Assembly: GCA_007182875.1 (NCBI GenBank)
Contig: AP019515.1
Coordinates: 124,001-188,000, forward strand
Reading direction: 5' to 3'
DNA from: Vreelandella sulfidaeris
GTDB lineage: Bacteria; Pseudomonadota; Gammaproteobacteria; Pseudomonadales; Halomonadaceae
Length of the DNA: 64,000 nt
The notes below the pieces were generated by a model. The model ran no database searches, was not told where the DNA came from, and worked only from the letters and a program-made list of their open reading frames with translations. Shown piece after piece: positions 27,794-46,116 of the stretch (its first letter is position 1; every line of letters begins with the position of its first letter). The translations under genes and the position numbers were made by a program.

Positions 27794-27820
27794 TTCAGCT
27801 TCAATTCATACTCTAAGGTT
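27794..27820 (+). promoter_or_regulatory. CopR-type promoter element, secreted protein (arm 1)
   Basis: TTCAG (27794-27798), 6 nt, TTCAT (27805-27809), then 10 nt and a TATTAT -10-like hexamer. Same geometry as the sites before the CopRS-linked genes. Confidence 0.65.
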
Positions 27821-27857
27821 ATTATTAAATTGTAAATAACCAACGGAGTAAACCACC

Positions 27858-28272
27858 ATGAAAATTAAAGCAATTGTTTTAGTGCAGTAGTAGCAAGTAT
27901 CCTCTCTACACCTGTATTAGCGAGCTTAGGCAATACAACACAGGATCTTCCCTTACTAGAAAGAGGCGTATCTTCTACACAGATGCTTGCTCAGGGGCAA
28001 TCGAAGCGTTTCAATATTAACATTGAACAAGCGACTACACTGAAAGTAGTGAGTGAGCACTTTCCAGGATTTACCAGCACTGGCAACCGCATTTCAGCTG
28101 TTCTTTATAATGAGGCGGGACAGCAGGTAGCAGAAGCTTCCAGCCCACGGGGCACTTCGAACTTATTCGTCAGCTGCAACCTGGAAATTATCAGCTTGAG
28201 GTGAGTGGTAGCTCATTGGGAGGTAATAACCAAAGTGACAGTAACCGTTATGAACTACATGTCGCCTATTGA
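27858..28272 (+). pseudogene. Small secreted PPC-like protein (arm 1 copy), frameshifted
   Basis: Start MKIKAIV after GGAG; signal peptide ends TPVLASLG in another frame. Mature part: SKRFNINIEQATTLKVVSEH, STGNRISAVLYNEAGQQVAE, and after a shift GHFELIRQLQPGNYQLEVSG, ending NRYELHVAY at 28272. The alternation of strands and the closing G-x-Y-x-L-x-V are reminiscent of small beta-sandwich PPC-type domains, a fold guess only. About 130 residues. The GGGG-for-GGGGG loss that shifts the frame is shared with the arm 2 copy, so it predates the duplication or is a systematic error. Confidence 0.55.
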
Positions 28273-28299
28273 TATCCTTTAGTCTTGACATGAATTAAG

Positions 28300-28325
28300 A
28301 AGGTCAGCCATGAGCTGACCTTTTA
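28300..28325 (+). terminator. Rho-independent terminator after the secreted protein gene
   Basis: AAGGTCAGC and GCTGACCTT form a 9-bp stem around CATGA, followed by TTTTATG. Mirrored in arm 2 at about 36876-36901. Confidence 0.75.
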
Positions 28326-28351
28326 TGAAAACTAGTATCTCGGCAAACAAA

Positions 28352-28367
28352 TTCAGCTTTAATTCAG
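28352..28367 (+). promoter_or_regulatory. CopR-type promoter element severed from porin gene (arm 1)
   Basis: TTCAG at 28352 and TTCAG at 28363, 11 nt apart. In arm 2 the same element is followed by the porin leader; here IS3 starts at 28374, so the -10 region and gene lie 2.7 kb away. Confidence 0.7.
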
Positions 28368-29323
28368 GAGTTTTGATCCTGCCCAGTAACGGTGGACACC
28401 TCAAGAACGTCATACGTTACGATGAGGTGAACCATGGCAAGATCGACAACATCAATGAAGAAAAATCATATACCCGTTACTCAGATGCCTACCGGCAAGA
28501 AGCCTTAGCGCTTGCGGATCGCATTGGCGTTGCAGCAGCGGCGCGTGAGCTGGGAATACACGCGAGTCAGCTCTATCAGTGGCGATCTAAAGCACAGCTG
28601 CAGCAAGACACATCCGAGCGAGAGCGGTCGTTGGCAGAAGAACGCCCGCTTGAAGCGCCAACTAGCCGAGGCAAATGAAGAGCTGGCCATCACAAAAGGC
28701 CGCGGTGTACTTTGCGAAAAGCCTGAAGTGAAGTACGCCTTTATCCACCGTCATCGTCAGGCGTTCAGTATTCAGCGTATGTGCCATGTTGTCGGGGTCG
28801 CTCGGAGTGGCTACTACGCTTGGCGGCAACGCGAAGGCGCATCGTCCCCAAAACGCAGCCAGCAAGCCATTATCGATCAGCATGTGGCCAAGGCTTATCA
28901 CCAACGCAAAGGCCGCTCAGGCGCCCGAGACTAACGCTAGACCTGCGAGATGATGGGATGCCGATCAACCGTAAGACGGTGGCTGCCAGCTTACAGCGTC
29001 AGGGCCTGCGCGCTAAAGCAGCTCGTAAGTTCAAGGCCACCACGAACTCACGGCATTCGCTGCCAGTCGCACCGAATCTACTAGAACAAAACTTCACGGC
29101 CTCAGCTCCTAATCAAAAGTGGGTGGGTGACATTACCTACTTGGCGACGGGCGAAGGCTGGCTTTACCTGGCAGTGCTCATTGATCTTTACTCTCGTAAA
29201 GTGGTCGGTTGGGCAATGAGTGAGCGTATGACGGCCGATCTTGTCTGTGACGCGCTACAGATGGCGCTATGGAGACGCAAAATGCCCAAAGGCGTGATAG
29301 TCCATTCGGATCGAGGTAGTCAG

Positions 29324-30770
29324 CTTAGGTTCAAGGGGCCGTCGCAACACTGGCTTATGATGCTGAAAATAGTAGTTCTTTGAGAGCTTCAGCAGGTGTT
29401 TTCCAATCAAGTGTTTTACGAGGTCTGTCGTTGAGAGTCGTCGCGACAGCGTCAAGCTCATGCTCAGAATACCTGCTAATGTCAGTACCCTTGGGAAAGT
29501 ATTGGCGCAGCAGACCATTGGTGTTCTCGTTAGTCCCACGCTGCCAGGGACTTCGGGGTCACAGAAGTAGATTGCCAAGCCAGTATCAAGTCGTAGCTGT
29601 GCATGCTGGGCCAGCTCCGCGCCTTGATCCCAAGTGAGCGATTTCCGCAGCTGTTCGGGCAGTGTGGCGATCTTTATGGCGATAGCATCGCGAACAGCCT
29701 CAGCCCCGTGACCAGCCAAAGCAGGTCCGTTCTTAACTCTGGCGCCCGTTCCATGATCATGCATGGGCGGCAAGTGAAGAAGTAGCGTGAACCGACTCGT
29801 GCGCTCGACTAAGGTACCGATTGCGGAGCTGTTCAATCCAATGATTAGGTCGCCTTCCCAGTGGCCGGGGACAGCGCGATCAGCAACCTCCGCCGGGCGC
29901 TGGCTGATCATCACCTCGGGCGAGAGTAGTGTTTACCGCGCTGCTGGGTTCTCGCTCGTGGTACCCGCAATGCCCGGCCAGTACGCAGACACGCGGACAG
30001 TTCACGACGAAGTGCACCGCGGCCTTGAATGTAGAGGGCCTGATAGATCGCCTCGTGAGAAATCCTCATCGTCTCATCATCTGGAAAGTCTACCCGCAGT
30101 CGACGGCTGATCTGCTCAGGACTCCAACTGACTCCCCACCGCCGGTCGGCTCGGCGACCATGCCGCCGTCCTCGCCATGGCAATTCGGGCCGGGAATAGG
30201 TCTGCCTTCAGCATCGGTCACCTCGCCAGCCAGACGTGATTGCACGTAAGCCTGCAACCAGCCATTCCCTGCAAGCTTGGCAGTTTTGGGCCGTTTGGCG
30301 GCTAGCTCTGCTTTCCACTGCGCGACTGTGGCCCGGTACTCCAACACACCGCCCCGGGTCGCAGCGTTACGGCGCAATTCGCGCGAGATCGTCGACGGTG
30401 ACCTTCCTAGACACCGTGCAATCTCACGAACCCCGTGCCCTGGACTCGCAATAGTGCGAGTTCCTCGCGCTCTGGGAACGACAAATAACGCCCTGAGGGT
30501 GGCACCAAGTTAGAGGGTGCCATCCCGCCTGCCTCGCGGAACCACCGTGGCCCCAACGGTTGTGATACACCACACGCCAAAGCTGCATCCTCGCTCGATA
30601 ACCCCTCAGCTATTCGCTTCCAGAATGCGCGATTGGTACTCCGCTGATTGATGCTTGGTCGACCAGGCGAACGCATCGGTGCTCGCCCAGTCTTTCAGCG
30701 ATCCAACTAGATGATCTTCCCATGTAACACCTCCAATATCGAGGTGTTGCGTCGACCGATTGAATCCGCC
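29324..30770 (-). mobile_element. IS30-family element inside IS3
   Basis: Ends share GTTCAAGGGGCCGTCGCAAC and its inverse counterpart ATTCAATCGGTCGACGCAAC. CAG at 29321-29323 and 30771-30773 is a probable 3-bp target duplication; removing the element restores the orfB reading [13 protein letters not shown]. Confidence 0.75.
29355..30676 (-). pseudogene. IS30-family transposase, frameshifted
   Basis: N-terminus MRSPGRPSINQRSTNRAFWK, RYLSFPEREELALLRVQG, then STISRELRRNAATRGGVLEY (helix-turn-helix), WSPEQISRRLRVDFPDDETM, SHEAIYQALYIQGRGALRRE, and the integrase core VPGHWEGDLIIGLNSSAIGT with catalytic Asp; C-terminal reading in another frame gives [20 protein letters not shown] and [20 protein letters not shown], the family signature. 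Ends LKELLFSAS at 29355. Breaks near 30410, 30150, 29915 and 29560. Confidence 0.85.
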
Positions 30771-31136
30771 CAGTACTGTTCCACGCGTTACCAATCGCTG
30801 CTTACCCGGCATGAGCTTACGTGCAGCATGAGCGCCAAAGGCAACTGCTATGATAATGCCTGTGCCGAAAGCTTCTTCCACAGCCTCAAGGTTGAAGCGA
30901 TCCATGGGGAGCAATTTACAACGCGAAACGATATGAGGCGCCAGGTGTTTGAGTACGTCGAACTGGACTACAACAAACAACGGCGGCACAGTGCTATTGG
31001 GATGATCAGCCCAGAGGCCTTTGAAGCCCGAATGATCGCTTAAACCAGTGTCCACTGTTGCTGGGTAAGATCATTTTCGCTAACCTTATAGTGCCGCAAT
31101 CGGCGTAAAACAAACCAATTCATAAAAGGTGTCATC

Positions 31137-32302
31137 ATGTGGAATAACAAAAAGGCTTCCCTAGGCGGACTGACGGCTATGGCCCTGGCAATGGGGACGA
31201 CTTCTGCGCTGGCCCTGGAAAGCCAGGTGGGAGAAACCACCGTGGGGCTGTATGGTTACGCTAGGCTCAATATGGCCTACAGCTTCGATCAAGATGCCGG
31301 ATCGGCTAACGAAGGTTACTTTGGAGATATCGAAAGGTCGGAAGATAAGGTCGGAGATCAGTTCCAGGCATCTGCCACACAGAGCCGTATCGGCTTTCGG
31401 ACCAGTACGCCTGTCGAGGGGAGCACGCTTTACACCGTAATCGAAGGGGACTTCTGGTCCTATAATGATGATAATTCGCGCTTCAGATTACGGCATGCCT
31501 ATGGTTCCTGGAATGGGATCCTTGCCGGACAGACCTGGTCGAATTACAACACCTTCGTCGCCGCCACGCCCACACTGGATTTCCTCGGCACGGCGGGAAG
31601 CAATGGCTATGGGTCGCGCCTAGCCCAGTTGCGCTACACCATGGGAGGATTCTCGATAGCTGCGGAGGATCCAAAGGCACAGCTGGCGGAGAACATCGAT
31701 GGCTCCGTGCCAGAAGATGATTTGCTACCGGATAATGACGATGCCGTATCATCGATGCCCGCGTTGAGCCTGCGCTATGAAGATAGTATGGGTGACTTTT
31801 CCTACTCAATCGCCGGCATCGCCCGGCAGCTGAAGTACGATACCGGAAGCGAAAAGGATACGGAAATGGGCTATGGGGCCTTCGCCGCAGGTGCCTACCA
31901 TGCCGGACCGGTGACCTTGAGAGCGATCGTGAACGCCAGCGAGGGGCGAACAGTTACCTCTATCTGTCTGGCGATTACTTCAACGGTGCCGATGCCTACG
32001 TCGATACCAACGGTAAGCTGCAAACGCTATCTGGCGATGGCGGAGCCCTTGGTCTTTCTTATCAAATATCACCACAGTATTCACTGAACGCGTCCCATGG
32101 CTATACCGATGTCGAATTGGGCGACCCTACCGTAGGTGGGAATGCAGGTAGAAAGAACAAGAATACATTTCTTAATCTGATGTGGACTCCCAACGAACGC
32201 TTGATGTACGGAATTGAGTACGGCTACTTCGAAACGGAGTTGGCCGATGGCCGTGAAGAAGATGCGAGCCGTGTGATGGTGGCTGCCCAGTATAGTTTCT
32301 AG
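31137..32302 (+). pseudogene. DcaP-like outer-membrane porin (arm 1 copy), frameshifted
   Basis: Signal peptide KASLGGLTAMALAMGTTSAL ending ALA, then ESQVGETTVGLYGYARLNMA and FRLRHAYGSWNGILAGQTWS, LAQLRYTMGGFSIAAEDPKA, and the C-terminal strands MYGIEYGYFETELADG and VMVAAQYSF (terminal Phe). This matches DcaP-type trimeric porins. A frame shift near 31945 (NASEG...) is shared with arm 2. IS3/IS30 separates it from its promoter element. Confidence 0.7.
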
Positions 32303-32343
32303 GGTGAGTTAGTAGCATAGCAGAGAAGCTGTTTTGATCGATT

Positions 32344-32367
32344 GCTTGGGCGTATGCCCAAGCTTTT
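32344..32367 (+). terminator. Terminator of porin gene (arm 1)
   Basis: GCTTGGGC-GTAT-GCCCAAGC perfect 8-bp stem followed by TTTT. The mirror copy is at 35542-35561. Confidence 0.75.
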
Positions 32368-32369
32368 AT

Positions 32370-32662
32370 GGTTCTTCGTCACTTCATGTGGGGCCTGATC
32401 GAACAGGCGACCCACAATACCACTGTCACTAAACTGAATAAGAAAGATCAGTCGCGTCGGGAACACTTTTGATGACCAAATCGATACAGATGAAGTCGCG
32501 CATGGCCTGGCTGTCATAGATGGCATCTTCAAGCGCTTCGTCGACCAGTGCATACCATTGCTGAAGGAAGTAGATCCGCAACATCTGTCCCAGGAACCGT
32601 TCCCGGCGGGTGACCTTCTTATTGTTCTGGTGCTCAGCCTGAGCAAACGAGATCTGTTTCAT
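32370..32662 (-). mobile_element. ISL3 right-end scrap fused to IS5-family transposase remnant
   Basis: GGTTCTTCGTCACTTCATGT at 32370 is the ISL3 terminal repeat. It runs into a fragment of an IS5-type transposase on the minus strand starting MKQISFAQAEHQNNKKVTRR at 32662, then IYFLQQWYALVDEALEDAIY; the family's usual segment between RERFL and LRIxFLQQWY is shortened, indicating an internal deletion. Only the N-terminal region survives. It forms the outer border of the inverted duplication. Confidence 0.65.
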
Positions 32663-32894
32663 CGAGAACTCTGGCGGGTAGTGGAAAACTGTATTTTGCC
32701 TGCCGGTGGCACTTAGGCAGCAACGGTCGTATTTATGCAGTGTTTCCTTAAAAGAGGCTCGCAGTAGGCTTGCTTCTACTAGAGTTTATTTCAAAATAAT
32801 TACCTCAATAATTTGAAAGCCTGAGTTAAAGCAAATGAATTTCTCCATAGAAGTTCACGTCGAGCCGGAGCGCTCGCCCCGGCTGGCTTAGAGC
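32663..32894. other. Intergenic, no gene seen
   Basis: AT-rich sequence between the IS5 remnant and the Csp gene; probably the outer end of the IS5 element plus the 3' flank of the Csp gene. No recognisable gene. Confidence 0.3.
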
Positions 32895-33219
32895 TTAGCT
32901 GGCCATTGCGGCACATTCTTCAGCGCAGCGGTGACAAGCTTGGGCACACTTGGCAGTGGGATGCATCATGTTTTTCACACTCATCACCACATTTCTTACA
33001 AATGTCGGCACATAGACGGCAGATCTCGTGCGCAAACTCACTTTCTTGTGCCATAAATGAGGCGGCTAACCGACAAATTTGAGCACATTGCATGTTAAGG
33101 CGAATACATTCCGCCATCATTTTACGTTGTCTTCTTTAGACACTCAGTTGCACACTTGTCGCAATAAGCAGCGCATATGTGACAAGCTTCAATGCAGTTT
33201 TCGTATTTTTGAAGTCCAT
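32895..33219 (-). pseudogene. Four-helix-bundle copper storage protein (Csp/DUF326), frameshifted
   Basis: Cys-rich helical protein: YENCIEACHICAAYCDKCAT, MMAECIRLNMQCAQICRLAA, AHEICRLCADICKKCGDECE, then in another frame HCAKCAQACHRCAEECAAMA. Repeated CxxxC/CxxC spacing lining a four-helix bundle is the hallmark of Csp proteins, which bind many Cu(I) ions. Ends at 32895. No export signal is obvious, so probably cytosolic (Csp3-like). Breaks near 33200 and 32960. Confidence 0.8.
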
Positions 33220-33493
33220 CCGGTTCTCCATTTATTAAATCAAATTTTATTTACCATAGTTCTTGCTTGGCATAATAAAGCTAGAACAACCTAAAAGATA
33301 AATCAAGGAAAGGGAACCTGGTAACTAATCAAAAATATAAAAATAAACCAGGTAGCTGTGCGTTACTTGCCGTAATTTTATTATTCAGCTAGGATTCAGG
33401 AAGGCCTACTATAATAAATTTTTGTCAAAAACACTGAAACGTTCGCTGCGCTTGTAAGTTACCTCGCCACGAGCTCCTAATTAAAGCAATTAG
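33220..33493 (+). promoter_or_regulatory. CopR-type promoter of the third secreted-protein paralogue, cut off by IS1380
   Basis: TTCAG at 33384-33388 and TTCAG at 33395-33399, then 10 nt and a perfect TATAAT (33410-33415), pointing right. The gene it should drive (5' end at 35062) is now behind the IS1380 element inserted at 33494. The remainder of the stretch is the 5' flank of the Csp gene with no other gene. Confidence 0.65.
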
Positions 33494-35047
33494 TCCGGAT
33501 TTCATAGCCTCTCAGCCAGTACCGAACTCAGGCTGTAACACCGCTAAACATCTACTGGCTAGACTTACATTGGCTACTTTTAATCACTTTCCGTCGTTCA
33601 GACACACTTCCCCTTCCCCATTGCGTCGGGCCGGGGCGCCCGAGCAGTCAGTTCGGCACCAACCGCCTGACGAGGTTGGATAGCGCCGTTTTATAAGGAT
33701 AGCTGTCACTCATCAGCACTCGGATGCGGCACGTATTGCGGATGATGACCGCCCCACTTTGATGAGCTTGAGCCTCAGGTTGCTCGGGCTCATGCGCGCG
33801 AAGGACGTTTTCTTCAGGTAAGTCCGTAACCGCTCGAACAGCGTATAGGCGAAGCCTGACAAGATTAGCCGCATCAGCCGCCACTGATTGGCCCACCAGT
33901 GCGTACTGGAGGTCCGGTCAGCGAACAGGCTCAGTTGTTGATCTTTGATTCAGTTTTCCATGTTGTCTCGAGCAAGTACTGCGCGTAGTAAAGCTTGAAG
34001 CTGTCATCGTAACGGGAACTGATGATAAACCGGGGTTGGAGCCCAGCTCGCTCTCTTCTAGACGAGCCACCACTCAGCGTGGGCATTGCCAGGAGTGGGC
34101 TTGATACGGGAAGCGGAACGTCCCTGCCACTTTTCTCCCACCTGCCATTGGGTTTTGCGTACCAGCATCATGGGCACATCCACTTCCTTGAGCAGTCGGT
34201 TGTTCTTGGCGATTCCCACGATGTAGTCGACGTGATGCCGATCGCACCAGTTCAGCATCTGGGGACGACAAAGTGGCTATCACCTCGTAACACGATACGG
34301 GTATCAGGCCAATATTGACGGATAAAGCGTACCAGTAGTGAGAGGATGGTCCAGCTATGGCGGCTGTCGCTTCGGTCACTGGTGCGCAGATAGCTCACCA
34401 GTAAGTGGCGACCACAGAAGACATACAGCGGGAAGTAGCAATGGTGGTCGTAGTAGCCGTTGAAGAACTTGCCCGGCTGCTCGCCGTGAACCGGGATATC
34501 AGTACCATCAAAGTCCAGCACGATTTCTGTCGGTGGCTCCTCGTGCTGCTCGATGAAGTGGTGCCACAGCACCTCATGGGCCTTCACTATTGCTTGCCAA
34601 TCGGCGTGCTGTTCCACCCGGCACAGCGTCGACTTGCCCGCCAGCGCCTCCACTTCACCGAGCGCCGTCTGAAGCGCCTGGTCATAACGTAGGGCCTCAT
34701 GGTCGTTGAAATCTTCGTAGCCAGCAGCGACACCGAACACCCGCTGACGAACCAGAGTGTCGAGCTTATGACGAATCTGTTCCGGTGCGCGGGGATCATG
34801 AAGCACGGCGGCCAAGCGGCGTGTCAGGCGATACTGTTTATCGACTTCACGAAGCAGGAGTAATCCGGCGTCTGACGTAATGTGGCCCCAGAGAAGTCGG
34901 CTTCAATTTGGCGGCGTGAGAATGGCTAGAAGGTGAGCTTTTCAGGTACCATTTTGGAAGCGGCTGTTGGTGTTTGATGGATTGGTTAGGTTCTTGAAAT
35001 CATAGCTCTTTCAGCCGCTTTCTTTTATACCCTGTGAGAAAACCGGG
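33494..35047 (-). mobile_element. IS1380-family element, copy 1
   Basis: Ends resemble CCGGATTTCTCAT: left TCCGGATTTCATAG at 33494, right GTGAGAAAACCGGG ending 35047. Flanks TTAG (33490-33493) and CTAG (35048-35051) suggest a 4-bp target duplication with one change. About 1.55 kb; clearly diverged from copy 2 at 41436. Confidence 0.75.
33648..34952 (-). pseudogene. IS1380-family transposase, copy 1, frameshifted
   Basis: MVPEKLTF, then QIEADFSG, RVFGVAAGYEDFNDHEALRY, AGKSTLCRVEQHADWQAIVK, EIVLDFDGTDIPVHGEQPGK (catalytic Asp region), YFPLYVFCGRHLLVSYLRTS, IVLRGDSHFVVPR and WCDRHHVDYIVGIAKNNRLL. This is the IS1380 (DDE_Tnp_1-like) pattern, ending LSNLVRRLVPN at 33648. Breaks near 34900, 34255, 34070 and 33900. 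Confidence 0.8.
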
Positions 35048-35061
35048 CTAGAGTAATTAAC

Positions 35062-35110
35062 ATAAAAATTAAATCTATTAATTTTGGAACGCTAGCAGCC
35101 AGCATTTTTC
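35062..35110 (+). pseudogene. 5' end of the third secreted-protein paralogue, cut by ISL3
   Basis: Reads (ATA in place of ATG) IKIKSINFGTLAASIF, closely matching the signal peptide start of the paralogues (MKFKAIIFGATVATIL). It stops at an ISL3 end; the missing part, beginning STSVWANFGN, is at 26062-26432. The flanking ATTTTTC is present at both broken edges. Confidence 0.65.
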
Positions 35111-35389
35111 GGTTCTTCGTTACTTCATGTGGATTTAGCCTGATCGAATAGGCGGCCCGCCGGGCTGCCAATCAGATAGATCATGGCGATGAAGTTAGCC
35201 TCGTTCCGATAGCCACGTGCGCGTGACCGAGCCGCCTGAAAAGGCCGTTCATCCCTTCCAGTCTTGCGTTCGTCAGTCCCGAGTGCCAGCGCCTAACCAC
35301 TGCTTCCGCGTGCCGCTCAAGTGTCGCCAAGGCCTTTCCCATCGGCTTCAGTAGTGACTTTTCAGAAACCGCCGCTTGCATAACTTTGA
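35111..35389 (-). mobile_element. Truncated ISL3 element (3' part of transposase)
   Basis: Begins with the ISL3 right-end repeat (GGTTCTTCGTTACTTCATGT) and encodes, on the minus strand, MQAAVSEKSLLKPMGKALAT and WHSGLTNARLEGMNGLF, nearly identical to the C-terminal part of the transposase at 26512-27761. Truncated at the border of arm 2. Confidence 0.8.
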
Positions 35390-35541
35390 GACAGCCAGGC
35401 CATGCGCGACTTCATCTGTATCGATTTGGTCATCAAGAGTGTTCCCGACGCGACTGATCTTTCTTATTCAGTTTAGTGACAGTGGTATTGTGGGTCGCCT
35501 GTTCGATCAGGCCCCACATGAAGTGACGAAGAACCATAAAA

Positions 35542-35561
35542 GCTTGGGCATACGCCCAAGC
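35542..35561 (-). terminator. Terminator of porin gene (arm 2)
   Basis: Same 8-bp stem GCTTGGGC/GCCCAAGC as at 32344, followed on the minus strand by TTTTATG. Confidence 0.75.
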
Positions 35562-35602
35562 AATCGATCAAAACAGCTTCTCTGCTATGCTACTAACTCA
35601 CC

Positions 35603-36765
35603 CTAGAAACTATACTGGCAGCCACCATCACACGGCTCGCATCTTCTTCACGGCCATCGGCCAACTCCGTTTCGAAGTAGCCGTACTCAATTCCGTACAT
35701 CAAGCGTTCGTTGGGAGTCCACATCAGATTAAGAAATGTATTCTTGTTCTTTCTACCTGCATTCCCACCTACGGTAGGGTCGCCCAATTCGACATCGGTA
35801 TAGCCATGGGACGCGTTCAGTGAATACTGTGGTGATATTTGATAAGAAAGACCAAGGGCTCCGCCATCGCCAGATAGCGTTTGCAGCTTACCGTTGGTAT
35901 CGACGTAGGCATCGGCACCGTTGAAGTAATCGCCAGACAGATAGAGGTAACTGTTCGCCCCTCGCTGGCGTTCACGATCGCTCTCAAGGTCACCGGTCCG
36001 GCATGGTAGGCACCTGCGGCGAAGGCCCCATAGCCCATTTCCGTATCCTTTTCGCTTCCGGTATCGTACTTCAGCTGCCGGGCGATGCCGGCGATTGAGT
36101 AGGAAAAGTCACCCATACTATCTTCATAGCGCAGGCTCAACGCGGGCATCGATGATACGGCATCGTCATTATCCGGTAGCAAATCATCTTCTGGCACGGA
36201 GCCATCGATGTTCTCCGCCAGCTGTGCCTTTGGATCCTCCGCAGCTATCGAGAATCCTCCCATGGTGTAGCGCAACTGGGCTAGGCGCGACCATAGCCAT
36301 TGCTTCCCGCCGTGCCGAGGAAATCCAGTGTGGGCGTGGCGGCGACGAAGGTGTTGTAATTCGACCAGGTCTGTCCGGCAAGGATCCCATTCCAGGAACC
36401 ATAGGCATGCCGTAATCTGAAGCGCGAATTATCATCATTATAGGACCAGAAGTCCCCTTCGATTACGGTGTAAAGCGTGCTCCCTCGACAGGCGTACTGG
36501 TCCGAAAGCCGATACGGCTCTGTGTGGCAGATGCCTGGAACTGATCTCCGACCTTATCTTCCGACCTTTCGATATCTCCAAAGTAACCTTCGTTAGCCGA
36601 TCCGGCATCTTGATCGAAGCTGTAGGCCATATTGAGCCTAGCGTAACCATACAGCCCCACGGTGGTTTCTCCCACCTGGCTTTCCAGGGCCAGCGCAGAA
36701 GTCGTCCCCATTGCCAGGGCCATAGCCGTCAGTCCGCCTAGGGAAGCCTTTTTGTTATTCCACAT
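35603..36765 (-). pseudogene. DcaP-like outer-membrane porin (arm 2 copy), frameshifted
   Basis: Same protein as at 31137-32302: signal peptide, ETTVGLYGYARLNMAYSF, LRYTMGGFSIAAEDPKA, terminal AAQYSF in one of the frames. Three shifts: near 36480 (GGGG to GGG, arm 2 only), near 36295 (arm 2 only) and near 35960 (shared with arm 1). Its promoter element at 36832 is intact. Porins of this type admit small organic acids; a link to copper tolerance is inferred only from the shared promoter element. Confidence 0.7.
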
Positions 36766-36820
36766 GATGACACCTTTTATGAATTGGTTTGTTTTACGCC
36801 GATTGCGGCACTATAAGGTT

Positions 36821-36847
36821 AGCGAAAATTCCTGAATTAAAGCTGAA
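36821..36847 (-). promoter_or_regulatory. CopR-type promoter element, porin (arm 2)
   Basis: On the minus strand TTCAG (36847-36843), 6 nt, TTCAG (36836-36832), 10 nt, then TAACCT, with TATAGT a few bases further on. Uninterrupted version of the element at 28352. Confidence 0.7.
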
Positions 36848-36927
36848 TTTGTTTGCCGAGATACTAGTTTTTCATAAAAGGTCAGCTCATGGCTGACCTT
36901 CTTAATTCATGTCAAGACTAAAGGATA

Positions 36928-37342
36928 TCAATAGGCGACATGTAGTTCATAACGGTTACTGTCACTTTGGTTATTACCTCCCAATGAGCTACCACTCACC
37001 TCAAGCTGATAATTTCCAGGTTGCAGCTGACGAATAAGTTCGAAGTGCCCCGTGGGCTGGAAGCTTCTGCTACCTGCTGTCCCGCCTCATTATAAAGAAC
37101 AGCTGAAATGCGGTTGCCAGTGCTTGTAATGCCCGGAAAATGTTCACTTGTCACTTGAGGGTAGTCGCTTGTTCAATATTAATATTGAAACGCTTCGAGT
37201 GCCCTTGTGCAAGAATCAGCGTAGAAGATACGCCTCTTTCAAGCGTCGGAGCGCCTTGAGAGGTGTTACCTAAGCTAGCCAAGACAGGTGTAGATAGTAT
37301 AGTTGCTACCGTTGCGCCAAAAATAATTGCTTTAAATTTCAT
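36928..37342 (-). pseudogene. Small secreted PPC-like protein (arm 2 copy), frameshifted
   Basis: MKFKAIIFGATVATILSTPV signal peptide, then GAPTLERGVSSTLILAQGHS, RFNINIEQATTLK, and in other frames the same strands as the arm 1 copy, ending YELHVAY at 36928. Compared with arm 1 there are several amino-acid changes near the N-terminus (FKAIIFGATV versus IKAIV), so this end of the arms has diverged more than the porin part. Confidence 0.55.
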
Positions 37343-37379
37343 GGTGGTTTACTCCGTTGGTTATTTACAATTTAATAAT

Positions 37380-37406
37380 AACCTTAGAGTATGAATTGAA
37401 GCTGAA
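37380..37406 (-). promoter_or_regulatory. CopR-type promoter element, secreted protein (arm 2)
   Basis: Minus strand TTCAG (37406-37402), 6 nt, TTCAT (37395-37391), 10 nt, TATTAT. Equivalent to 27794-27820. Confidence 0.65.
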
Positions 37407-37420
37407 TTTAGTGGTTTTAG

Positions 37421-37443
37421 CAAAAATGCCACCTTCCGGTGGC
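37421..37443 (-). terminator. Terminator after second copB
   Basis: GCCACC-GGAA-GGTGGC stem followed by ATTTTTG on the minus strand, 25 nt after the copB stop and before the secreted-protein promoter. Confidence 0.75.
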
Positions 37444-37467
37444 GCAAGTTATAGAGTGCTTAACGAT

Positions 37468-38232
37468 TTAAAATATTAACCTGACACCTGCCACCACGCC
37501 GGTATCTTCGGTATTATTCCCGCCAGCACGAGAAAGGTCAGCGGTATCGCCATACTCTTTACCCAGTAAGCGCCCACGTAAGGCGCAAAGCGTCTGGTCA
37601 CTTCGTAGCCCAGGCGCATGCCGACACGCACTGAGTTAAGGCCCTCACCCACACCAAACTCCTTAACTTCGCTGGCAGCTACGGCAATTTCGGTACGCGG
37701 CTGTAGGTAGAGCCGCTGAGTCAGGCGCAGATCGTACTCGCTTTCCAGGCTGGCGGAGATATCGCCTTCATCGCTTATCATCAAGTCGAGATCGGTCTCG
37801 AAGCGATAGGGGCGAGCCCCAATAGGCTGATGACGCCGAAATAGCGTTCGGGATAGTCATTCGTAGCGATACCGCCCTGATAACCGATGCCGCCCTGAAG
37901 TTCCCAGAAGTCGGCAATCAAACGACTATAAAGCAGGTTGAGGGACTCGAATTCTGCATCTTCGCCATCGCCCTGGACGTTTTCGCCTTCGCCTTCCACG
38001 TATAGGCGATTGAAATCACCGCCATACCAGGCCTGGAAATCCCAGACCAAGGCATCCCCTTGTCGGGCGAAGCATATTCCAAGCGATCGACCCGTACCGT
38101 GGTCATCGGGTGCTCCACGACCGGTGACGGCCAGCCGGCCGGGGCGTCATAGCCGTCTTCGGCTTGAGCAGTCGTGGCGGCGGCCATGCCGAGGGCGGCG
38201 CTGGCGAGGGTTAAGTAGTGCTTGGTTTTCAT
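37468..38232 (-). pseudogene. copB: Copper resistance outer-membrane protein CopB, second copy, frameshifted
   Basis: Signal MKTKHYLTLASAALGMAAAT, then APAGWPSPVVEHPMTTVRVD, and in other frames LVWDFQAWYGGDFNRLYVEG, LLYSRLIADFWELQGGIGYQ, SEYDLRLTQRLYLQPRTEIA, GMRLGYEVTRRFAPYVGAYW and the terminal VAGVRLIF. Unlike many CopB it has no long Met-rich N-terminal extension. Starts 10 nt after copA. Breaks near 38110, 37930, 37800 and 37545. Confidence 0.85.
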
Positions 38233-38241
38233 ACTGCCTCC

Positions 38242-40088
38242 TTAAGAAACCTGAACAACGCGGAACATGCCGGCATCCATGTGATAGAGAAGGTGGCAGT
38301 GGAACGCCCAACTGCCCTCGGCGTCTGCAGTGATCAGCGCAGACACGCGCTCGCCGGGCTTCACGTTCAAGGTGTGTTTGCGCGGAATCAATTCACCCTG
38401 GCCGTTTTCCAGCTCCATCCACATGCCGTGGAGGTGGATAGGATGCTCCATCATGGTGTCGTTAATCAGAATTAGGCGCAGCCGCTCATCTTTCTCAAAA
38501 TGAATAGGGCCGGTCACTTCGCTAAACTTCTTACCGTCGAACGACCACATATAACGCTCCATATTGCCGGTCAGGTGCAGCTCAAGCTCACGGCCTGGCT
38601 CACGGCGATCAGGCCATGGTGTGAACGCTTTGAGATCCCGGTAAACCAATACGCGTCGTTCGTCAGGATCAATGCCGATTCCCGCCTGGTTATAGCGAGA
38701 GCCCGGCTGAGCTTCACCGGCGAGAAGCAAACCATTTGCGCCTATTTTGGCCTGCTCGGCTGCCATCCCCATAGTAGAGTGATCCATGCCTTGCATGTTG
38801 GACATACCGGAGTGATCCATCCCAGCCATGCTGGAATGATCCATCCCCGACATGTTGGACATGCCAGAGTGATCCATCCCCGACATGTTGGACATGCCAG
38901 AGTGATCCATCCCCGCCATGTTGGAGTGATCCATACCGCCCATACCGTGGGCACCCATGGCTTCCATGCCGCGGTCGGCAATTTGGCGGCGCTTGGGAAT
39001 CTCCGCCTGCATGCCTTCACGCGGGCTAGCGTGGCGCGAGCGTAGCCACTCCGATCCATGGCTTCGGCGAAGATGGTATAGGCTCGATCATCTTCTGGTG
39101 AAACAAGCACATCGTACGTTTCCGCCACGCCAATACGGAACTCATCAACAGGCACGGGTTGCACTGGCTGGCCATCGGCGGCCACCACGGTCATCTTCAG
39201 GCCAGGTATACGGACATCGAAGTATGACATGGCCGAACCGTTAATCACGCGTAGCCGTACCCGCTCACCGGCCTTGAACAGCGCGTTCCAGTTTTCCTGG
39301 GGAGTGGCCGTTGAGCAGGTAGGTATAAGTGCTGCCGGTGACATCGGCGATATCCCGCGAGCTCATACGCATTTGGGCCCACATACCGCGCATCTCGGCG
39401 GTTTGTGAGAAACCCTTTCGCGTACATCGGCGAAAAATCAGCAATCGTGCGCTCTTGGAAGTTGTAATAGCCTTCCATGGTTTTCAGATTACGGAACACC
39501 GACATCGGTTCTTCAAAGGTCCAGTCGGTGAGCAGTAACACATGCTCACGGTCGTAACGGATAGGCTCGCGCTCGGCGGCGTCGATAATCAGCGGCCCCG
39601 CATGGCCTAGCTGTTCCTGCAGACCTGAGTGGCTGTGGTACCAGTAGGTGCCGTTCTGCCTGACAGGGAAACGATAGGTAAAAGTTTCACCAGGGGCGAT
39701 ACCGGCAAAACTGACACCAGGCACACCATCCATTTCCGGCGGTAGAATAAGACCATGCCAGTGGATGGAGGTGGACTCGTCCAGCAGGTTGGTGACACGC
39801 AGTACGGCGTCTTGACCTTCTTTCAAACGAATCAGCGGGCCAGGACTGGTACCGTTAATGGTAATTGGTTGGGCTTCTTGTCCGTCAATAGGCAACGATT
39901 CACGGCGGATCGCCAGCGATACCTCGGGTCCTTCTTCAACGCCCTGCGCGTAGACATTGCTGCGGCCCCAGGGTTTGCCCAGGCGGGGTTAATCCCATTG
40001 CCGCAGCGGAACCTATTCCTAGGGCAGCGCCGCCTTTTAGGACCTGCCGGCGAGAAAGCGGGTGAGAAATGATGCTTGAGCGTGCCAT
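38242..40088 (-). pseudogene. copA: Multicopper oxidase CopA (PcoA type), second copy, frameshifted
   Basis: Tat signal (HPLSRRQVLKGGAALGIGSA), then SIHWHGLILPPEMDGVPGVS, NGTYWYHSHSGLQEQLGH, a Met/His/Asp-rich insertion (38780-38960, repeated MSNMSGMDHSGM) and C-terminal HPIHLHGMWMELENGQGE and WAFHCHLLYHMDAGMFRVVQ. All four copper ligand clusters are present. Breaks near 39985, 39410, 39310 and 39030. Preceded by a CopR-type element at 40135 and located after the copS kinase gene. Confidence 0.85.
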
Positions 40089-40123
40089 GTGTAACTCCCA
40101 TCAATGATGAATGGCACCATCTT

Positions 40124-40150
40124 GATGGAAGAAGCTGAATCAAAGCTGAA
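40124..40150 (-). promoter_or_regulatory. CopR-type promoter element, second copA
   Basis: Minus strand TTCAG (40150-40146), 6 nt, TTCAG (40139-40135), 10 nt, then CAAGAT, a weak -10. About 47 bp upstream of the ATG at 40088, so copAB can be transcribed separately from copRS. Confidence 0.65.
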
Positions 40151-41435
40151 TAGTGATTAATTAATCACTTCAACTGCAAGAGGCAACGTAACCGTAACGC
40201 GCAGTCCACCCAGTGGACTACGCTCAAAGCGCGAGTGCCCTGAGTAGCGGGCAATTAACTGCGCAAGAATCGACAGGCCTAAGCCGTAGCCGGGACGGCG
40301 TTCATCCATCGTGTGCCACGCTCTCCCAAGCGCGAAAGATCTTCTTCTGCAACGCCGAAACCGTCATCATCAGTGGTGAGCGTGAGTGTGGTAGCGGAGG
40401 CGGCAATATCGCAATTAACGCACCTATTCGCCCATTTGCCAGCGTTATCGAGCACGATGCCTAATATTTCAGAAAAGTCGTGAGCCTCAATAGGCACGGT
40501 CTTTCTCGCCTGCCGAGTGGGCGAGGTTGAAGATACGCTCAGGGTAAAGGCTGCGGAACATCTCGATGAGCCGTGAACTATCACGCGTGACGTTGGCCAT
40601 TCGCCCCGCGTTAGGGCCTGCAATACGTGAGCGACGCAGCTCCGCATCCAGCTGGGCGTTAATATCCTCAATACGGCTGAGCAGTTTATGGCGTCGGGTT
40701 TCATCAATGGGCCGATTGCCACGCAGTACTTGGGTAACGGCTGCCAGCGGGTTTTAATGCATGTGATAGGTTCGCGACCGACTCTCTGGAGCGCTTCAAG
40801 CGAAGGTCAATGTCATCCATAAACCAGTTCAACTGGTCGACTAATTCATCTAGCTCAGAAGGGCTATTAATGACAAGCGATCACGTTTGCCCGCTCGCAA
40901 TGCTTCAAGCTGTTGACGCAGTTGCCAGAGTGGCTTGAGTCCACGATTAACCGCTAACATGTTGAGTATGATGAGCATTCCTAACAGCGCGCTGGCAATC
41001 CCACCGACCCACCAGTGCAATGTTGCAAGCCCTGCTTCTACTTGAGAGAAGTCCTCACCCACCAGCAGCACACCCTGCGTGCCCTGCCATTCAAAATGGC
41101 GACGATAGACGAGCATGTGTTGCTCGCCGCGATTCACGTCTATTAGAGCATCACCGCTTTCATCTAGCAGCGAAGCCAGCTGTTGCTGCCATTGTGGGTC
41201 GGAAGCGCTGACCGAGCCGTTGAAGCGGAGTACGTAGAGATGATGAAAGACTTGATAGCCTTGGCTAACCGAGTCAAGCGCGGCAGGCACGGCGGCTTCA
41301 CCTTGCTCAAGCTGCGTGACGGCATGGTCGGCTTCGCGCTGAAGACGCTCACCCAAAATCCCGAGCAAGATTCTGTAGCAGTATGCCATGCAGTAGCCAG
41401 GTCGTCACCACTACGAATAGTGCCACGCCTCCTAG

Positions 41436-42983
41436 CCCGGATTTCTCATAGGTCCCCAGCAAGTCTCGCAGACTGTGCGGGTTACCGCCATTACCGCTCA
41501 TTGGCGGCCGTGACTGATCAATAATCGATCAATTTCTGTTGTCCGGACACGGCCCCTTTCCCCATTGAGTCGGGCCGGGGAGCCCAGGCTTCTATTCCGG
41601 AACCAGTTGACGCACCAGGTCAGAGAGTTCGTCTTTGTAAGGATAGGCATCGCTCATCAACACCCGTATGCGTCGAGTGTTGCGAATGATGACCGCGCCC
41701 ACCTTGATCAGCTTCAGCCGCAGGTTACTGGCGCTCATTCTCTCGAAGGGGTCTTCTTCAAGTGGGCCCGTAATCGCTCGAACAACGTGTAGGCAAAGCC
41801 CGATAAGAGCAACCGCCACTGATTGGTCCACCACCGCGTGCTGGAGGTGCGATCTGCGAACAGACACAACTGCTGATCCTTGATCCGGTTTTCCATGTCA
41901 CCCCGGCACAGTATTGCTCGTAGTAGAGTTTAACGCCGTCGTCGTAACGGGAGCTGAGAATGAACCTGGGGTTGGCACCCAGTTCGCCCTCCTCCAGACG
42001 CGCGATCACCCAGCGGGGTGTTTCCAGGTGTGGGCCTGGTACTGGAATCGATAGGTGGCGCAGACTTTTCACCCAGTTCGTTGTGAGCCTTGCGAACCAG
42101 CATCGAGGGTACGTCTACCTCCTTGAGCAGCCGGCTGTTCTTGCTGAGGCCCACCAGATAGTCCACGTTGTTCCGGTCGCACCAGCTCAGCAATCGGGGA
42201 CGGTAAAAGCCGCTGTCACCCGGAACACGATGCGGGTATTCGTCCAGTACTGCCGGATGAATTTCACCAGCAGGGCCAGAATGGCCCAGCTGTGGCGGCT
42301 GTCGCTTCGGTTGCTGGTGCGCAGGTAGTTCACCAGCAGATGGCGACCGCAGAACACGTACAGTGGGAAGTAACAATGGTGATTGTAGTAGGCGTTAAAG
42401 AACTTGCCGGGCTGGTCGCCATGCACCGGAACGTCGGTGCCATCAAAATCCAGCACAATTTCCTTGGGTGGAGTCTCGTGCTGTTCAATGAAGTGATGCC
42501 ACAGCAGTTCGTGGGCCTTGACCACGGCCTGCCGGTCTACGCGCTGCTCCATTCGGCACAGTGTTGATTTGCCCGCTAGAATGGCCGCTTCGCCAGTCGC
42601 GGTCTGAAGTGCCTGGTCAGCGCGTAACGTTTCGTGATCGTTCAGATCTTCGTATCCGGCGGCTACGCCAAAGACCCGTTGCCGGATCATGGTTTGAAGC
42701 TTGTGGCGAACCAGTACCGGATTACGGGCATCGTCCAGCACCGTAGCCAGGCGCTGAGTGAGCTGGTGTTGGTTGTCGACTTCGCGAAGCAAAAGCAGGC
42801 CGGCATCGGAGGTGATATGACCACCGGAGAAATCGGCTTCAATTTGACGGCGAGACAGTGGCGAGAAGGTCAGTTTTCAGGTACCATTTTGGATAGCGGC
42901 TGTTGGTGCTTGGTGAACGGTGTAAGGTCCTGAAACTATAGCACTTTCAGCCGCTTTCTTTATCCCCTCATGAGAAATCCGGG
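41436..42983 (-). mobile_element. IS1380-family element, copy 2, inserted in copS
   Basis: Perfect inverted ends CCCGGATTTCTCAT at 41436 and ATGAGAAATCCGGG ending 42983, flanked by CTAG on both sides (41432-41435, 42984-42987). 1548 bp. Excision would rejoin the copS signal-anchor reading. Confidence 0.9.
41592..42897 (-). pseudogene. IS1380-family transposase, copy 2, frameshifted
   Basis: Homologous to 33648-34952 (RVFGVAAGYEDLNDHETLRA, EIVLDFDGTDVPVHGDQPGK, YFPLYVFCGRHLLVNYLRTS) but with many substitutions, so a separate family member and not a recent copy. Ends LSDLVRQLVPE. Breaks near 42850, 42225, 42060 and 41850. Confidence 0.8.
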
Positions 42984-43039
42984 CTAGCCAGGCGAGTAGT
43001 CGAAAACGTAAACTGCGCCGATCAATGTGAAGCAAAGAA

Positions 43040-43684
43040 ATACCCTGGCCGCGGCGAGTTTGGATAATTGATTTGCCTAGATAACGGCGCAGACGAGCGA
43101 TATAGACTTCGACCAAGTTAGGTGCGGCGGCATCCTGTTCCAGGGCATAGAGCTGCTCTAATAACTGCTCTTTGGAGTGAATGCGATCTGGATGCAGCAT
43201 TAAGTAGCGTAGTAATCGAAACTCTGTCGCCGTTAGCGAACGCCAAGTTTCTCCCTCTAGGCATACTCGTTGACCTGCTTCATCCAGCGATACGCCATTG
43301 AGCGTCACAACTTGAGATAACTGACCAGACTGCCTGCGCAGCAGTGCCTTCAAACGGGCCATAAGCTCGGCTTCATGGAAGGGTTTAGCTAGGTAATCAT
43401 CGGCACCCGTTTCAAGACCAATGACTTTATCTTCCCAAGTATCGCGCGCCGTCAAGATCAAGATAGGCGTGCTGCGTTTTGCTTGCGCCACTGGGCTAGT
43501 AGATCTAGTCCCGAGCCATCGGGCAAACCGGATCTAAGATAGCCAGCTCGTAATGCTCGGTTGCCATTAGCGACTTGGCCGCTTTCAATGAAGCGGCCAA
43601 GTCGACAAGGTAACCGTTGTCCTTGAGACTCTCTGCCAAGCTTTCTGCCAGCAAATCATCATCTTCGAGTAGCAACAGTTTCAT
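43040..43684 (-). pseudogene. copR: Response regulator CopR/CusR (OmpR family), frameshifted
   Basis: Receiver domain MKLLLLEDDDLLAESLAESL (acidic pair), phospho-Asp region AILD near 43530, ILILTARDTWEDKVIGLETG (T/K switch) and GADDYLAKPFHEAELMARLK; winged-helix effector ATEFRLLRYLMLHPDRIHSK and PNLVEVYIARLRRYLGKSII. Breaks near 43520 and 43060. Likely binds the TTCAG-N6-TTCAG elements (inference from the OmpR family's direct-repeat sites and from their distribution). Downstream of the cupredoxin gene. Confidence 0.85.
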
Positions 43685-43698
43685 GGGTAAACGTCAGA

Positions 43699-44202
43699 TT
43701 AGAAAGTAAAATTGCCGTACATGCCGGATTCGTAATGGCCGGGAATGTTACAAGCATACTCTAGCTCGTTAGTATTATCAGGAACACTCCATAATAGAGT
43801 CCCGGTGTCACCAGGTGCAATTGTGACGCCTGCCATGCTCATATTGGCCATATCGTGGCCTTCACCTTGTGACATGTTTGACATGTCATGACCTTCGCCA
43901 TTTGCCATGTCTAGCATCATTTTCGATGCTCTTCATGGGCTTCTTTACTGCCAATCACAAATTCATGCTCTAAATTGCCGGTGTTGGTGATTTCAAATTT
44001 AACCACCTCCCAGCCGCCAGTTCTAGCTCTTCAGGGTCGAACCACATATCGCCAGCCTCGAGACTGATCGTGCGGTCGACGTCAGACTCAGTTAGGCCGC
44101 TATCCCCGCCGCCATGGCCAGGTGCAGCCCACGTGGCGCTTGTTACTAAGCCTAGTGAAAGAGCAAATAAAGACGTTACTAAAGTGTTTTGCGCATGGTC
44201 AT
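43699..44202 (-). pseudogene. copI: CopI-like periplasmic cupredoxin, frameshifted
   Basis: Signal peptide SLFALSLGLVTSATWAAPGH, then AGDMWFDPEELELAAGGWE, FEITNTGNLEHEFVIGSKEA in other frames, a Met/His insertion (MANGEGHDMSNMSQGEGHDM) and the copper site YACNIPGHYESGMYGNFTF with Cys, His and Met ligands. Length about 168 residues. Start either 44202 (MTMRK) or 44196. First gene of the copIRS unit; CopR-type element at 44247. Confidence 0.8.
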
Positions 44203-44487
44203 TTACCTCAGAGGTTATTGCCACTTGTTCTTTATACGGTGTTAACCTGAAACGAGCCTGAACCTAACGTAATAATAGGATCTGCTGCACAACAGTATTT
44301 CTAATATGATGATGGATCCTGACTAGATACTGCTCTCTAATTAGTGTCAACACTGCAGCAATGACTTTTCGTCTTTTGGTGCAATGCCTATGGCAGCATC
44401 CGCCTAAACCTCAGTGTACGGCCCACAAGAAGGCGACCGTTAATGTTCGATCTCTGGATCGGCTCTACAAGGTGGTTGCCCTGTTGG
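44203..44487 (-). promoter_or_regulatory. Promoter region of copI-copRS with CopR-type element
   Basis: Minus strand TTCAG (44262-44258), 6 nt, TTCAG (44251-44247), 10 nt, TATAAA at 44231-44236, about 29 nt upstream of the ATG at 44202. The remainder up to 44487 has no gene. Confidence 0.7.
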
Positions 44488-45761
44488 TCACCCATTCGGT
44501 GATGTCACCCTTGTCAGCACCGCCGTAATCAACAGGACAACCACGACCAGCACCACCTCCAGCGCAATACTGCGCTGCAAACGTCGTGGGGCTGTTGCGT
44601 CGCCGCTCTCAAAGGCAGGTACAAGCCGCCACTTGTTCGCGGCAGCAAATAACAGCAGCACCGCGACAATCAATACTTTGCCGATCAAGAACTGTCCATA
44701 TGCCGTGGTGAGCAGGTGTGAGACCGCCTGTTAGCAGCGTGGCCAACGTGACGCCCGCCAGTACCAACACGCCAACTCCGCCCATGGCGAGTTGCCCGAA
44801 ACGGGTCAGAATACGGGCGGTATTGCCGTGGTTGTAATGTTGCCCCACTAAGTGGAACAGCGGCCACAGCGAGGCTACCCAGAACGCCGCCGCCATCAAG
44901 TGAATGATCAGCAAGCCAGCCAGAACGAGGCGTGGGGTGTTCACCGTATGTCCCACCTGCACGAACGCCAGCATCACCAGTAACACGCCCACTAGGCTCA
45001 AGCTATTGGCTGTTTTGAGAGTGTTAAGTTATTGAGCTGAATCGCCTGGACCAACAGCAAGCCAGTTACCACCAGTATCAGCCGGGTCCCGGACGCACCC
45101 TCGAACACGATCCCGAGTAGCATTGGGTTGGTTGCAGCCGCTATATTGCCGCCCCAAGGTAACCAGCTTCTAAAGGCCACTGGAACAGAATCAGGATAAT
45201 CCCGGCCCAGACAGCAAGGACACCCATGCGGGCGACGTGCCTCCGGTCATGTTCAGGAGTTGGGGAAATGCTAGACGAAACAACACGGCTCCCGTCGCGA
45301 CTAGGGCACTGAGGTAAACCCCGGCCGCCACGAGAATCATCGCGACGGTCCAGACGTCGAGGCTATTTACGGAGAACCACCAGGCCATGGGTCGGGGCTC
45401 GACCGAGAAGTTAAAACCGTCGGTCATCATGTGCCCGTCATCCGATAGGCCGCGCCAGCATACCTGGTAGTCCCCAGCCGAAAGAATTTCACCTGGTTTT
45501 ACGAAGTAGCGTTCGACCTGTTCACTGCCTGGCTGACCATCAAGAGGAACAGAGCCGTCCGGGCCTGTCACTTCAAACTGGGTGATACGCATCATGCCAC
45601 CAAACTCAATGCCAATCTCTGCTGGGGAATCCTGAATGGTCACGCCATCCTTAGGTGAAGTGCTTGCGCCCCTTCATGGGCCAGCACTGGGATTGCTAGC
45701 GACAGCAACAGCGTTGCTAAGGTAGCGTGAATGATAGGGAGCGAACTCGTCTTCTTTGCAT
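44488..45761 (-). pseudogene. copD: CopC-CopD fusion, copper resistance/import protein, frameshifted
   Basis: N-terminal signal (ATLATLLLSLAIPVLAHEGA, with the mature His that binds copper in CopC), then AEIGIEFGGMMRITQFEVTG and YQVCWRGLSDDGHMMTDGFN (CopC fold, HxMTD-like His). From about 45380 the CopD membrane part follows: VWTVAMILVAAGVYLSALVA, IAAATNPMLLGIVFEG, MAAAFWVASLWPLFHLVGQH, IGKVLIVAVLLLFAAANKWR. Fusions of this order occur in YcnJ-type proteins. Breaks near 45700, 45195, 44995 and 44700. CopR-type element upstream. Confidence 0.75.
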
Positions 45762-46116
45762 ACCGTATCCTTATATATTTTAGGGTTGAATGGATGCCGT
45801 TACTTCATCGCGGAGGCGCTAAAACTGATTCGGCTGAGCCTTCTTACATCGTTCATCTGCCCTGTTTGGCGAACAAGGCGCATGGCGTCGTGCTTTCTTC
45901 ATGGAAATGAGTCGGTGTTATAACGTGCCAACCTGAAACAGGGCTGAAAATGGCGGAAAAATGATCTGTGACAACACTTAGGTATTGGGATCGGTTTCTC
46001 CTTTACCTTTGGGCCACCTATAGGTTGTAGGTTTATAACGAAAGCTAACTCCGCCTTCTTCCATTTTTAATGGATAAGGCGATGTCTCGACCAACAACAT
46101 GATAAGAGGAAATATC
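45762..46116 (-). promoter_or_regulatory. Divergent region with CopR-type promoter element of copCD
   Basis: Minus strand TTCAG (45948-45944), 6 nt, TTCAG (45937-45933), 10 nt, TATAAC at 45917-45922. On the other side, an AGAGGA site precedes the Met-rich gene at 46117. A short minus-strand frame (45978-46115, ending YRWPKGKGETDPNT) looks protein-like but I cannot place it. Confidence 0.65.

Follow-up and report, generated by a model that had tools for sequence, protein, structure and literature searches.

A direct-repeat promoter element as the predicted operator of a Halomonadaceae copper regulator

Copper-resistance genes, together with genes for a porin and small secreted proteins, lie behind a recurrent promoter element in a stretch of 64,000 nucleotides from Vreelandella sulfidaeris (Halomonadaceae; assembly GCA_007182875.1, contig AP019515.1, positions 124,001 to 188,000), hereafter the window. 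This stretch belongs to C2 (G000:C2:124001-188000), one of the two contigs of the 4.48 Mb assembly, which with 273,549 bases makes up 6% of the genome; the chromosome is denoted C1. The element, hereafter the box, consists of two TTCAG half-sites separated by six bases, and is very probably the operator of the response regulator CopR of this family, through which a copper regulon would be controlled. This prediction is favoured because the box is conserved, stands in an autoregulatory position, co-occurs with CopR and goes along with a particular recognition helix.

Boxes and genes of the window

Paired half-sites with a period of 11 bp are present at all eight places listed in an earlier reading of this sequence (the original prediction), six of them exact and two, at 27794 and 37391, ending in TTCAT (Table 1). 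The exact pattern is matched six times in the window; 100 shuffles averaged 0.14 matches, with 1 as the largest number, and 0 of 100 reached six. A hexamer resembling a -10 element stands 10 nt 3′ of the box at seven of the eight sites. It had been claimed for all of them, but the position concerned reads CCTGCC after the box at 28352, because an insertion (about 28.37-31.07 kb) parts this box from its -10 region, which is intact just 5′ of the porin copy at 31137. Of the two porin copies, which are nearly identical, one (28352-31137) therefore offers a promoter split by nature between box and -10.

Table 1. Boxes and copper-regulatory genes of the window
Feature	Position	Strand	Remarks
TTCAGCTTCAATTCAT box 27794-27809 with TATTAT 27820-27825	27794..27825	+	before secreted protein gene (about 27857-28269); score 22.6
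Box with an insertion of about 2.7 kb between it and its -10	28352..28367	+	porin copy at 31137-32299
Box 33384-33399 with TATAAT 33410-33415	33384..33415	+	no open reading frame (ORF) of at least 40 amino acids (aa) starting within 600 nt 3′
Box 36832-36847 with TAACCT 36816-36821	36816..36847	-	before DcaP-type porin (about 36765-35617)
Box 37391-37406, second half TTCAT, with TATTAT 37375-37380	37375..37406	-	before another secreted protein gene (about 37342-36931)
Box 40135-40150 with CAAGAT 40119-40124	40119..40150	-	before copA (about 40088-38245)
Box 44247-44262 with TATAAA 44231-44236	44231..44262	-	before copI (about 44197-43702) and copR
Box 45933-45948 with TATAAC 45917-45922	45917..45948	-	before copC-copD (about 45761-44491); leader of about 150 nt
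copR, PmrA/BqsR-like response regulator	43042..43684	-	PNLVEVYIARLR as recognition helix (read by eye); gene carries frameshifts in the assembly
IS1380-like transposase between copR and copS	41598..42876	-	from comparison with relatives
copS	40160..41501	-	cut near its start by IS1380; from comparison with relatives

Many window genes are recognisable only against relatives, because the assembly holds many frameshifts, and they were named via annotated genes on plasmids of Halomonas sp. KO116 and HAL1, the best matches in a plasmid collection. The original prediction had a box in front of a copI-copRS operon; copI and copR do follow it, but the IS1380 element separates copR from copS. In KO116 copR and copS lie about 13 kb apart, each next to an IS1380.

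The secreted proteins of about 138 aa belong to a family that has three genes in the window (27857-28269, 36931-37342 and 26065-26470). A structural model of this protein (mean predicted local distance difference test, pLDDT, 77.8) consists of strands only, save one helix of four residues; searches gave no Pfam match for three members of the family and no NCBIfam match for one. The box at 33384 had been attributed to the third paralogue, an attribution that does not hold. No ORF of the size given in Table 1 begins within 600 nt behind it, an IS1380-like transposase lies on the opposite strand at 33651-34887, and at the counterpart of this box in three relatives (L031, L034 and L038) no ORF was found before about 510 nt. 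The third paralogue itself (26065-26470, minus strand) has no box within 450 nt 5′ (best score 2.4).

Distribution in the genome and among Halomonadaceae

In the source genome TTCAG-N6-TTCAG is matched exactly 23 times, with 13 matches on C2 and 10 on C1, and spacers of 0-30 together give 454 genome matches, or 14.6 per spacer. Since the 10 C1 matches compare with this genome-wide mean, the chromosome does not rise above background, and the excess lies on C2. A chromosomal regulon was rejected for this reason, TANNNT standing in register only at C1:2048702, a site that seems to be left over from the complex-I-like promoter found also at C2:84283. A second cop cluster at C2:72-79 kb, also frameshifted, has its copC, copI and copA boxes all present and a copS without insertion, and the secreted-protein gene behind it has a weak site only (score 15.6). 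Further well-scoring C2 boxes precede genes for a cytochrome c (C2:122394), an amino-acid permease (C2:81112 and C2:113128) and a NuoA-like protein (C2:84283), these names being Pfam matches of the genes or of their relatives. The C2:122394 box was considered as a box of the first copA (286) lying just 5′ of the window, and was rejected in that role, as it precedes the cytochrome c gene about 160 nt on and not copA.

A CopR query returned 73 loci, of which 67 of Halomonadaceae type were used (L089 among them is titled merely Gammaproteobacteria bacterium) and six from other groups were dropped (L094, L096, L097, L099, L100 and L101). With spacers of 0-30 tried, six bases gave 176 exact pairs in the 67 loci and the next best spacer (22) gave 10. 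The scan of genome and relatives proposed with the original prediction thus bears out the spacing in the relatives, whereas on the chromosome the bare pattern stays at background.

The register of the -10 element was examined for exact pairs in the 67 loci and two Halomonas plasmids; 12 of 187 pairs, having no ORF behind them, were excluded, and sequence windows at least 70% alike were removed, which left 73 sites. YANNNT stands at offset 10 in 39 of these and in at most nine at any other offset. It varies with the gene, copI sites having mainly TATAA or TACAA and copA sites C-A-N-N-A-T; the weak -10 of copA is therefore a conserved feature. Beyond the pentamers and this hexamer, information is found in a C and a T that follow the first half-site and in GTT or CTT following the second; the outer flanks hold next to none, which argues against the repeats being merely inherited promoter copies that mobile copper islands carry along under no common regulator. 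Such an origin would fit those window copies that are near-identical inverted duplicates amid insertion sequences, and the related islands on the KO116 and HAL1 plasmids, but the loci scanned include sites from Chromohalobacter, Cobetia, Kushneria, Salinicola, Litchfieldella, Vreelandella and Halomonas, and we consider it very improbable.

When the first ORF behind each box was tallied (69 loci, 212 sites, TTCAT halves allowed), copA was found in 56 loci, copI in 51, the secreted protein in 11, DUF411 in 11, copC in 10, Lgt in 8, copR itself in 7 and the porin in 5, plus smaller groups. A scan by score (at least 20) found additional loci, that of Chromohalobacter (L053:7557) among them, in which the secreted protein stands behind a box with an altered half-site; since Cobetia (L078) and the Kushneria/Salinicola group (L087-L090) also carry the pair, the association of box and secreted protein spans several genera. 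At a few sites of relatives, L053:7557 for example, the first half reads TTAAG.

Islands with multiple boxes are present in G051 and G110 (genus g19) and in G193 (g20), where the boxes precede TolC-RND efflux, CcmF, YHS, SHOCT, MerR and NuoA-like genes, along with one gene that we take to be ccdA; in G193 (L105:13709-15847) a box lies about 130 nt 5′ of a CcmF-type cytochrome c maturation gene. In or near copper islands, a box also stands 5′ of a complex-I-like operon (L027:4283-7400, that is C2:84283 on; L109:2827-6175; L110:461-3801; L083:13879; L053:14716). Pfam identifies NuoA, a 49-kDa-like subunit and NuoH in this operon, which presumably also encodes NuoJ- and NuoL/M-like proteins, and which is possibly a copper-linked ion-pumping module.

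Across 201 genomes of the family, 103 have a CopR orthologue (best E-value at most 1e-78, the next being 3e-63). The box with N10-TANNNT, matched 143 times in 68 of the 201 genomes, is found in 59 of the 103 with CopR and in 9 of the 98 without (Fisher, 1.4e-13); a control with a gap of seven bases gave 19 matches in 16 genomes, 4 of the 103 and 12 of the 98. This tracking of CopR orthologues, and the fact that in the loci studied the box most often precedes copA and copI, speak against another response regulator of the same specificity (for instance RR2, by a second cusCBA of Halomonas sp. KO116, or a regulator of the PepSY-operon type) being the main or a shared binder and bringing in several signals. 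RR2 has a helix, NVVQVYIARLR, whose Arg occupies the place of position 196 (PmrA numbering, discussed below), a weak site (L025:31256, score 16.5) lies 5′ of the TolC gene neighbouring it, and a box (L025:39279) lies 120 nt from its start, yet on the opposite strand and directed away from it. In Pseudomonas, moreover, several regulators are described as cross-regulating one site, according to an excerpt of PMC11195947. A search for RR2, which covered the window, did not find it there. On balance a role of this kind is unlikely, though less so than inheritance of promoter copies without a regulator, and CopR is preferred as the regulator of the box.

Regulator type and known operators

PmrA is the top NCBIfam match of CopR, below cut-off. 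Specifically, the HAL1 CopR scores 211 bits against the PmrA equivalog NF007928 (cut-off 330) and 146.7 bits against the cztR_silR_copR model TIGR01387 of the CusR/PcoR/SilR type (cut-off 279.2), and as both scores are below cut-off it belongs to neither. The closest full-length solved structure is PmrA/BasR (residues 1-220, E-value 4e-48), with receiver and winged-helix domains, and the nearest solved relative of the DNA-binding domain is CarR (9yfa, 1.1e-21). In a tree of 21 rows, whose groupings were tested after a first tree of 25 rows had been seen, Halomonadaceae CopR groups (95/98) with five regulators whose genes adjoin TTCAG boxes elsewhere; its union with CusR/PcoR in one clade is rejected (approximately unbiased test, p-AU 0.005). 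The recognition helix follows P/S-N-x-x-E-V-Y-x-A/G/S-R-L-R in 66 of the 67 CopRs, that of L086 being unreadable. Judged by sequence, CopR is of the PmrA/BqsR type and not of the CusR/PcoR type.

The box can be compared with operators described in excerpts of the literature. The BqsR box of Pseudomonas aeruginosa is TTAAG(N)6TTAAG with one pentamer over the -35, and BqsR senses Fe(II) (PMC4682146, excerpt); CarR and BqsR are one protein, to go by the 'BqsS/CarS' of a title (PMC12666569). As described there, that box shares with the present one its two pentamers, six-base gap, 11-bp period, pentamer overlapping the -35 and metal-sensing regulator. The half-site is TTCAG and not TTAAG, however, so that the box is not a BqsR box, the genes are copper genes as opposed to a ferrous-iron response, and CopR has Arg where CarR has His at position 196. 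PmrA (BasR) binds tandem half-sites head to tail with the -35 at half-site 1 (PMC4660055, excerpt); the HN of its helix is replaced by AR, GR or SR in CopRs. An 11-bp direct repeat over the -35 (the overlap being deduced from spacing) at a fixed distance from the -10 is common to the box and to sites of the PmrA, BqsR and PhoB type. The cre/blr-tag TTCACnnnnnnTTCAC of CreB/BlrA is likewise given as a direct repeat with a six-base gap (PMC3660660, excerpt), but its last base is C in place of G, and in the trees CreB lies on a distant branch.

Functionally, the predicted system resembles those of the copper and silver regulators CopR, CusR, PcoR and AgrR, with an OmpR-family regulator and copper-inducible copA, copC and cus genes. 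The operators of these, as far as the excerpts go, are inverted repeats: TGACA-N4-TGTCA for CopR/CusR (PMC12428095), ATTCATnnATGTAAT for CusR (PMC11195947) and ATKACANNNNTGTMAT for AgrR, whose sites can bear an additional direct repeat, with inverted-repeat sites also in P. syringae CopR and PcoR (PMC7380067). The conserved CopR element, unlike these, is a direct repeat. The Halomonadaceae box is therefore classed as a direct repeat of the BqsR/PmrA/CreB kind with a half-site of its own, by predicted function a copper operator and by family not CusR-type; box and predicted regulator come from another two-component branch than the textbook copper regulators. This indicates that copABCD-type resistance operons may run under a regulator of another branch, and an operator of another symmetry, than the CusR/PcoR paradigm. 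No TTCAG direct repeat for a copper regulator is described among the matches listed from open-licence PubMed Central.

Gene content and what is known of the regulator family suggest how such a promoter would work, with copper as the probable signal. The half-sites, separated by one helical turn, would be occupied by two CopR DNA-binding domains arranged head to tail. With the -10 set at -12 to -7, the half-sites fall near -38 to -34 and -27 to -23, and therefore the upstream one should overlap the -35. Because PmrA has the -35 at half-site 1 and BqsR a pentamer over it, the box is read as a putative class-II activator site, from which RNA polymerase would use the hexamer 10 nt 3′ in class-II type activation. 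Phosphorylated CopR would turn on copI-copRS, a positive autoregulation, and also copAB, copCD, the secreted beta-strand protein and the DcaP porin; in relatives its targets would further include DUF411, Lgt, cytochrome and complex-I-like genes. The original prediction, in which CopR controls every gene with a box, is thus retained as a well-supported prediction for copper genes as well as for the porin and the secreted protein, with the exception of the porin copy cut off from the 28352 box and of the 33384 box, which is geneless nearby. The whole bacterial family would thereby gain a predicted copper regulon that can be scanned for, and this regulon would take in a secreted protein, a porin and respiratory genes that are not normally associated with copper.

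Several observations weigh against this reading. The exact box with TANNNT is missing from 44 of the 103 CopR genomes (copA sites with CANNAT fall outside this count) and is present in 9 of the 98 without CopR. The -10 rule is kept by those 39 of 73 sites and not by all, and since the relatives share descent, the counts exaggerate their independence. As the original prediction had noticed, the element is absent before the first copAB and before cusCBA, where the best scores are -3.4 (5′ of the first copA up to the window edge) and -2.3 (within 450 nt 5′ of cusC). Finally, 46 of the 94 class loci treated below hold none of the associated genes searched for.

Class-wide boxes and residue 196

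TTCAGN6TTCAGN10TANNNT is found in 66 of 274 genomes sampled across Gammaproteobacteria, the source genome (G000) included, and the 101 listed matches outside G000 fall into 94 loci. A CopR-like regulator is present in 36 of these (35 at 42-53% identity; that of L184, at 25%, is probably unrelated), cytochrome b561 in 32, a PepSY-like protein in 28, a dihaem-type cytochrome in 18, a TolC-type protein in 11 and an RND pump in 4, with at least one associated gene in 48. Gene labels denote similarity to proteins chosen from the first loci, and the PepSY, dihaem cytochrome and DUF1924 labels are in part our assumption, made from motifs. In NCBIfam the PepSY-like and DUF1924-like examples had no match, and the cytochrome examples had none that passed the cut-off; Pfam backs the cytochrome b561 label for the Halomonas relative L046. 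Open-licence PubMed Central yielded 0 papers for the PepSY/cytochrome module. With PepSY/cytochrome b561/cytochrome c and RND-efflux operons among these loci, the box as a purely copper mark was rejected.

The counterpart TTAAGN6TTAAGN10TANNNT is found in 87 of the same 274 genomes, and 70 of its loci were taken (30 as supplied, 40 picked from the list). Regulators with an E-value of 1e-20 or better numbered 35 in the 94 TTCAG loci and 14 in the 70 TTAAG loci, of which 6 and 2 were dropped for an unreadable helix. Position 196 is Arg or Lys in 28 of 29 TTCAG-linked regulators (26 R, 2 K, 1 H) as against 1 of 12 linked to TTAAG (8 H, 1 N, 1 A, 1 S, 1 R; Fisher, 4.4e-8), a comparison that overstates independence because each group is for the most part one clade and some loci are closely related. 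The lone Arg of the TTAAG set has a CusR-like helix and may be a bystander. Position 196 is Asn in E. coli PmrA and His in CarR, and an excerpt of the PmrA-DNA structure paper gives Asn196 as a base contact (PMC4660055).

These findings could be drawn together in a wider proposal, to which we give about an even chance. Position 196 would set the third base of the half-site, Arg or Lys going with TTCAG and mostly His (or Asn) with TTAAG, so that gammaproteobacterial PmrA/QseB/BqsR-like regulators would use two largely separate promoter languages of the same geometry. The TTCAG language would serve PepSY/cytochrome b561/dihaem cytochrome and RND-efflux operons in many families, and would have been recruited in Halomonadaceae as a copper code that reaches respiratory (complex-I-like and cytochrome c maturation) genes. 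A residue-to-base prediction is thereby offered for a large group of regulators that sense metals or the envelope.

Two minor observations may be added. The copC leader of the window (45761-45917) contains a short coding-like stretch that seems to recur in relatives (near L039:18330 and L049:14863). In the class sample, G292, G265, G263 and other genomes have 16-21 TTAAG-N6-TTAAG-N10-TANNNT sites each, suggesting large regulons of a TTAAG-reading regulator.

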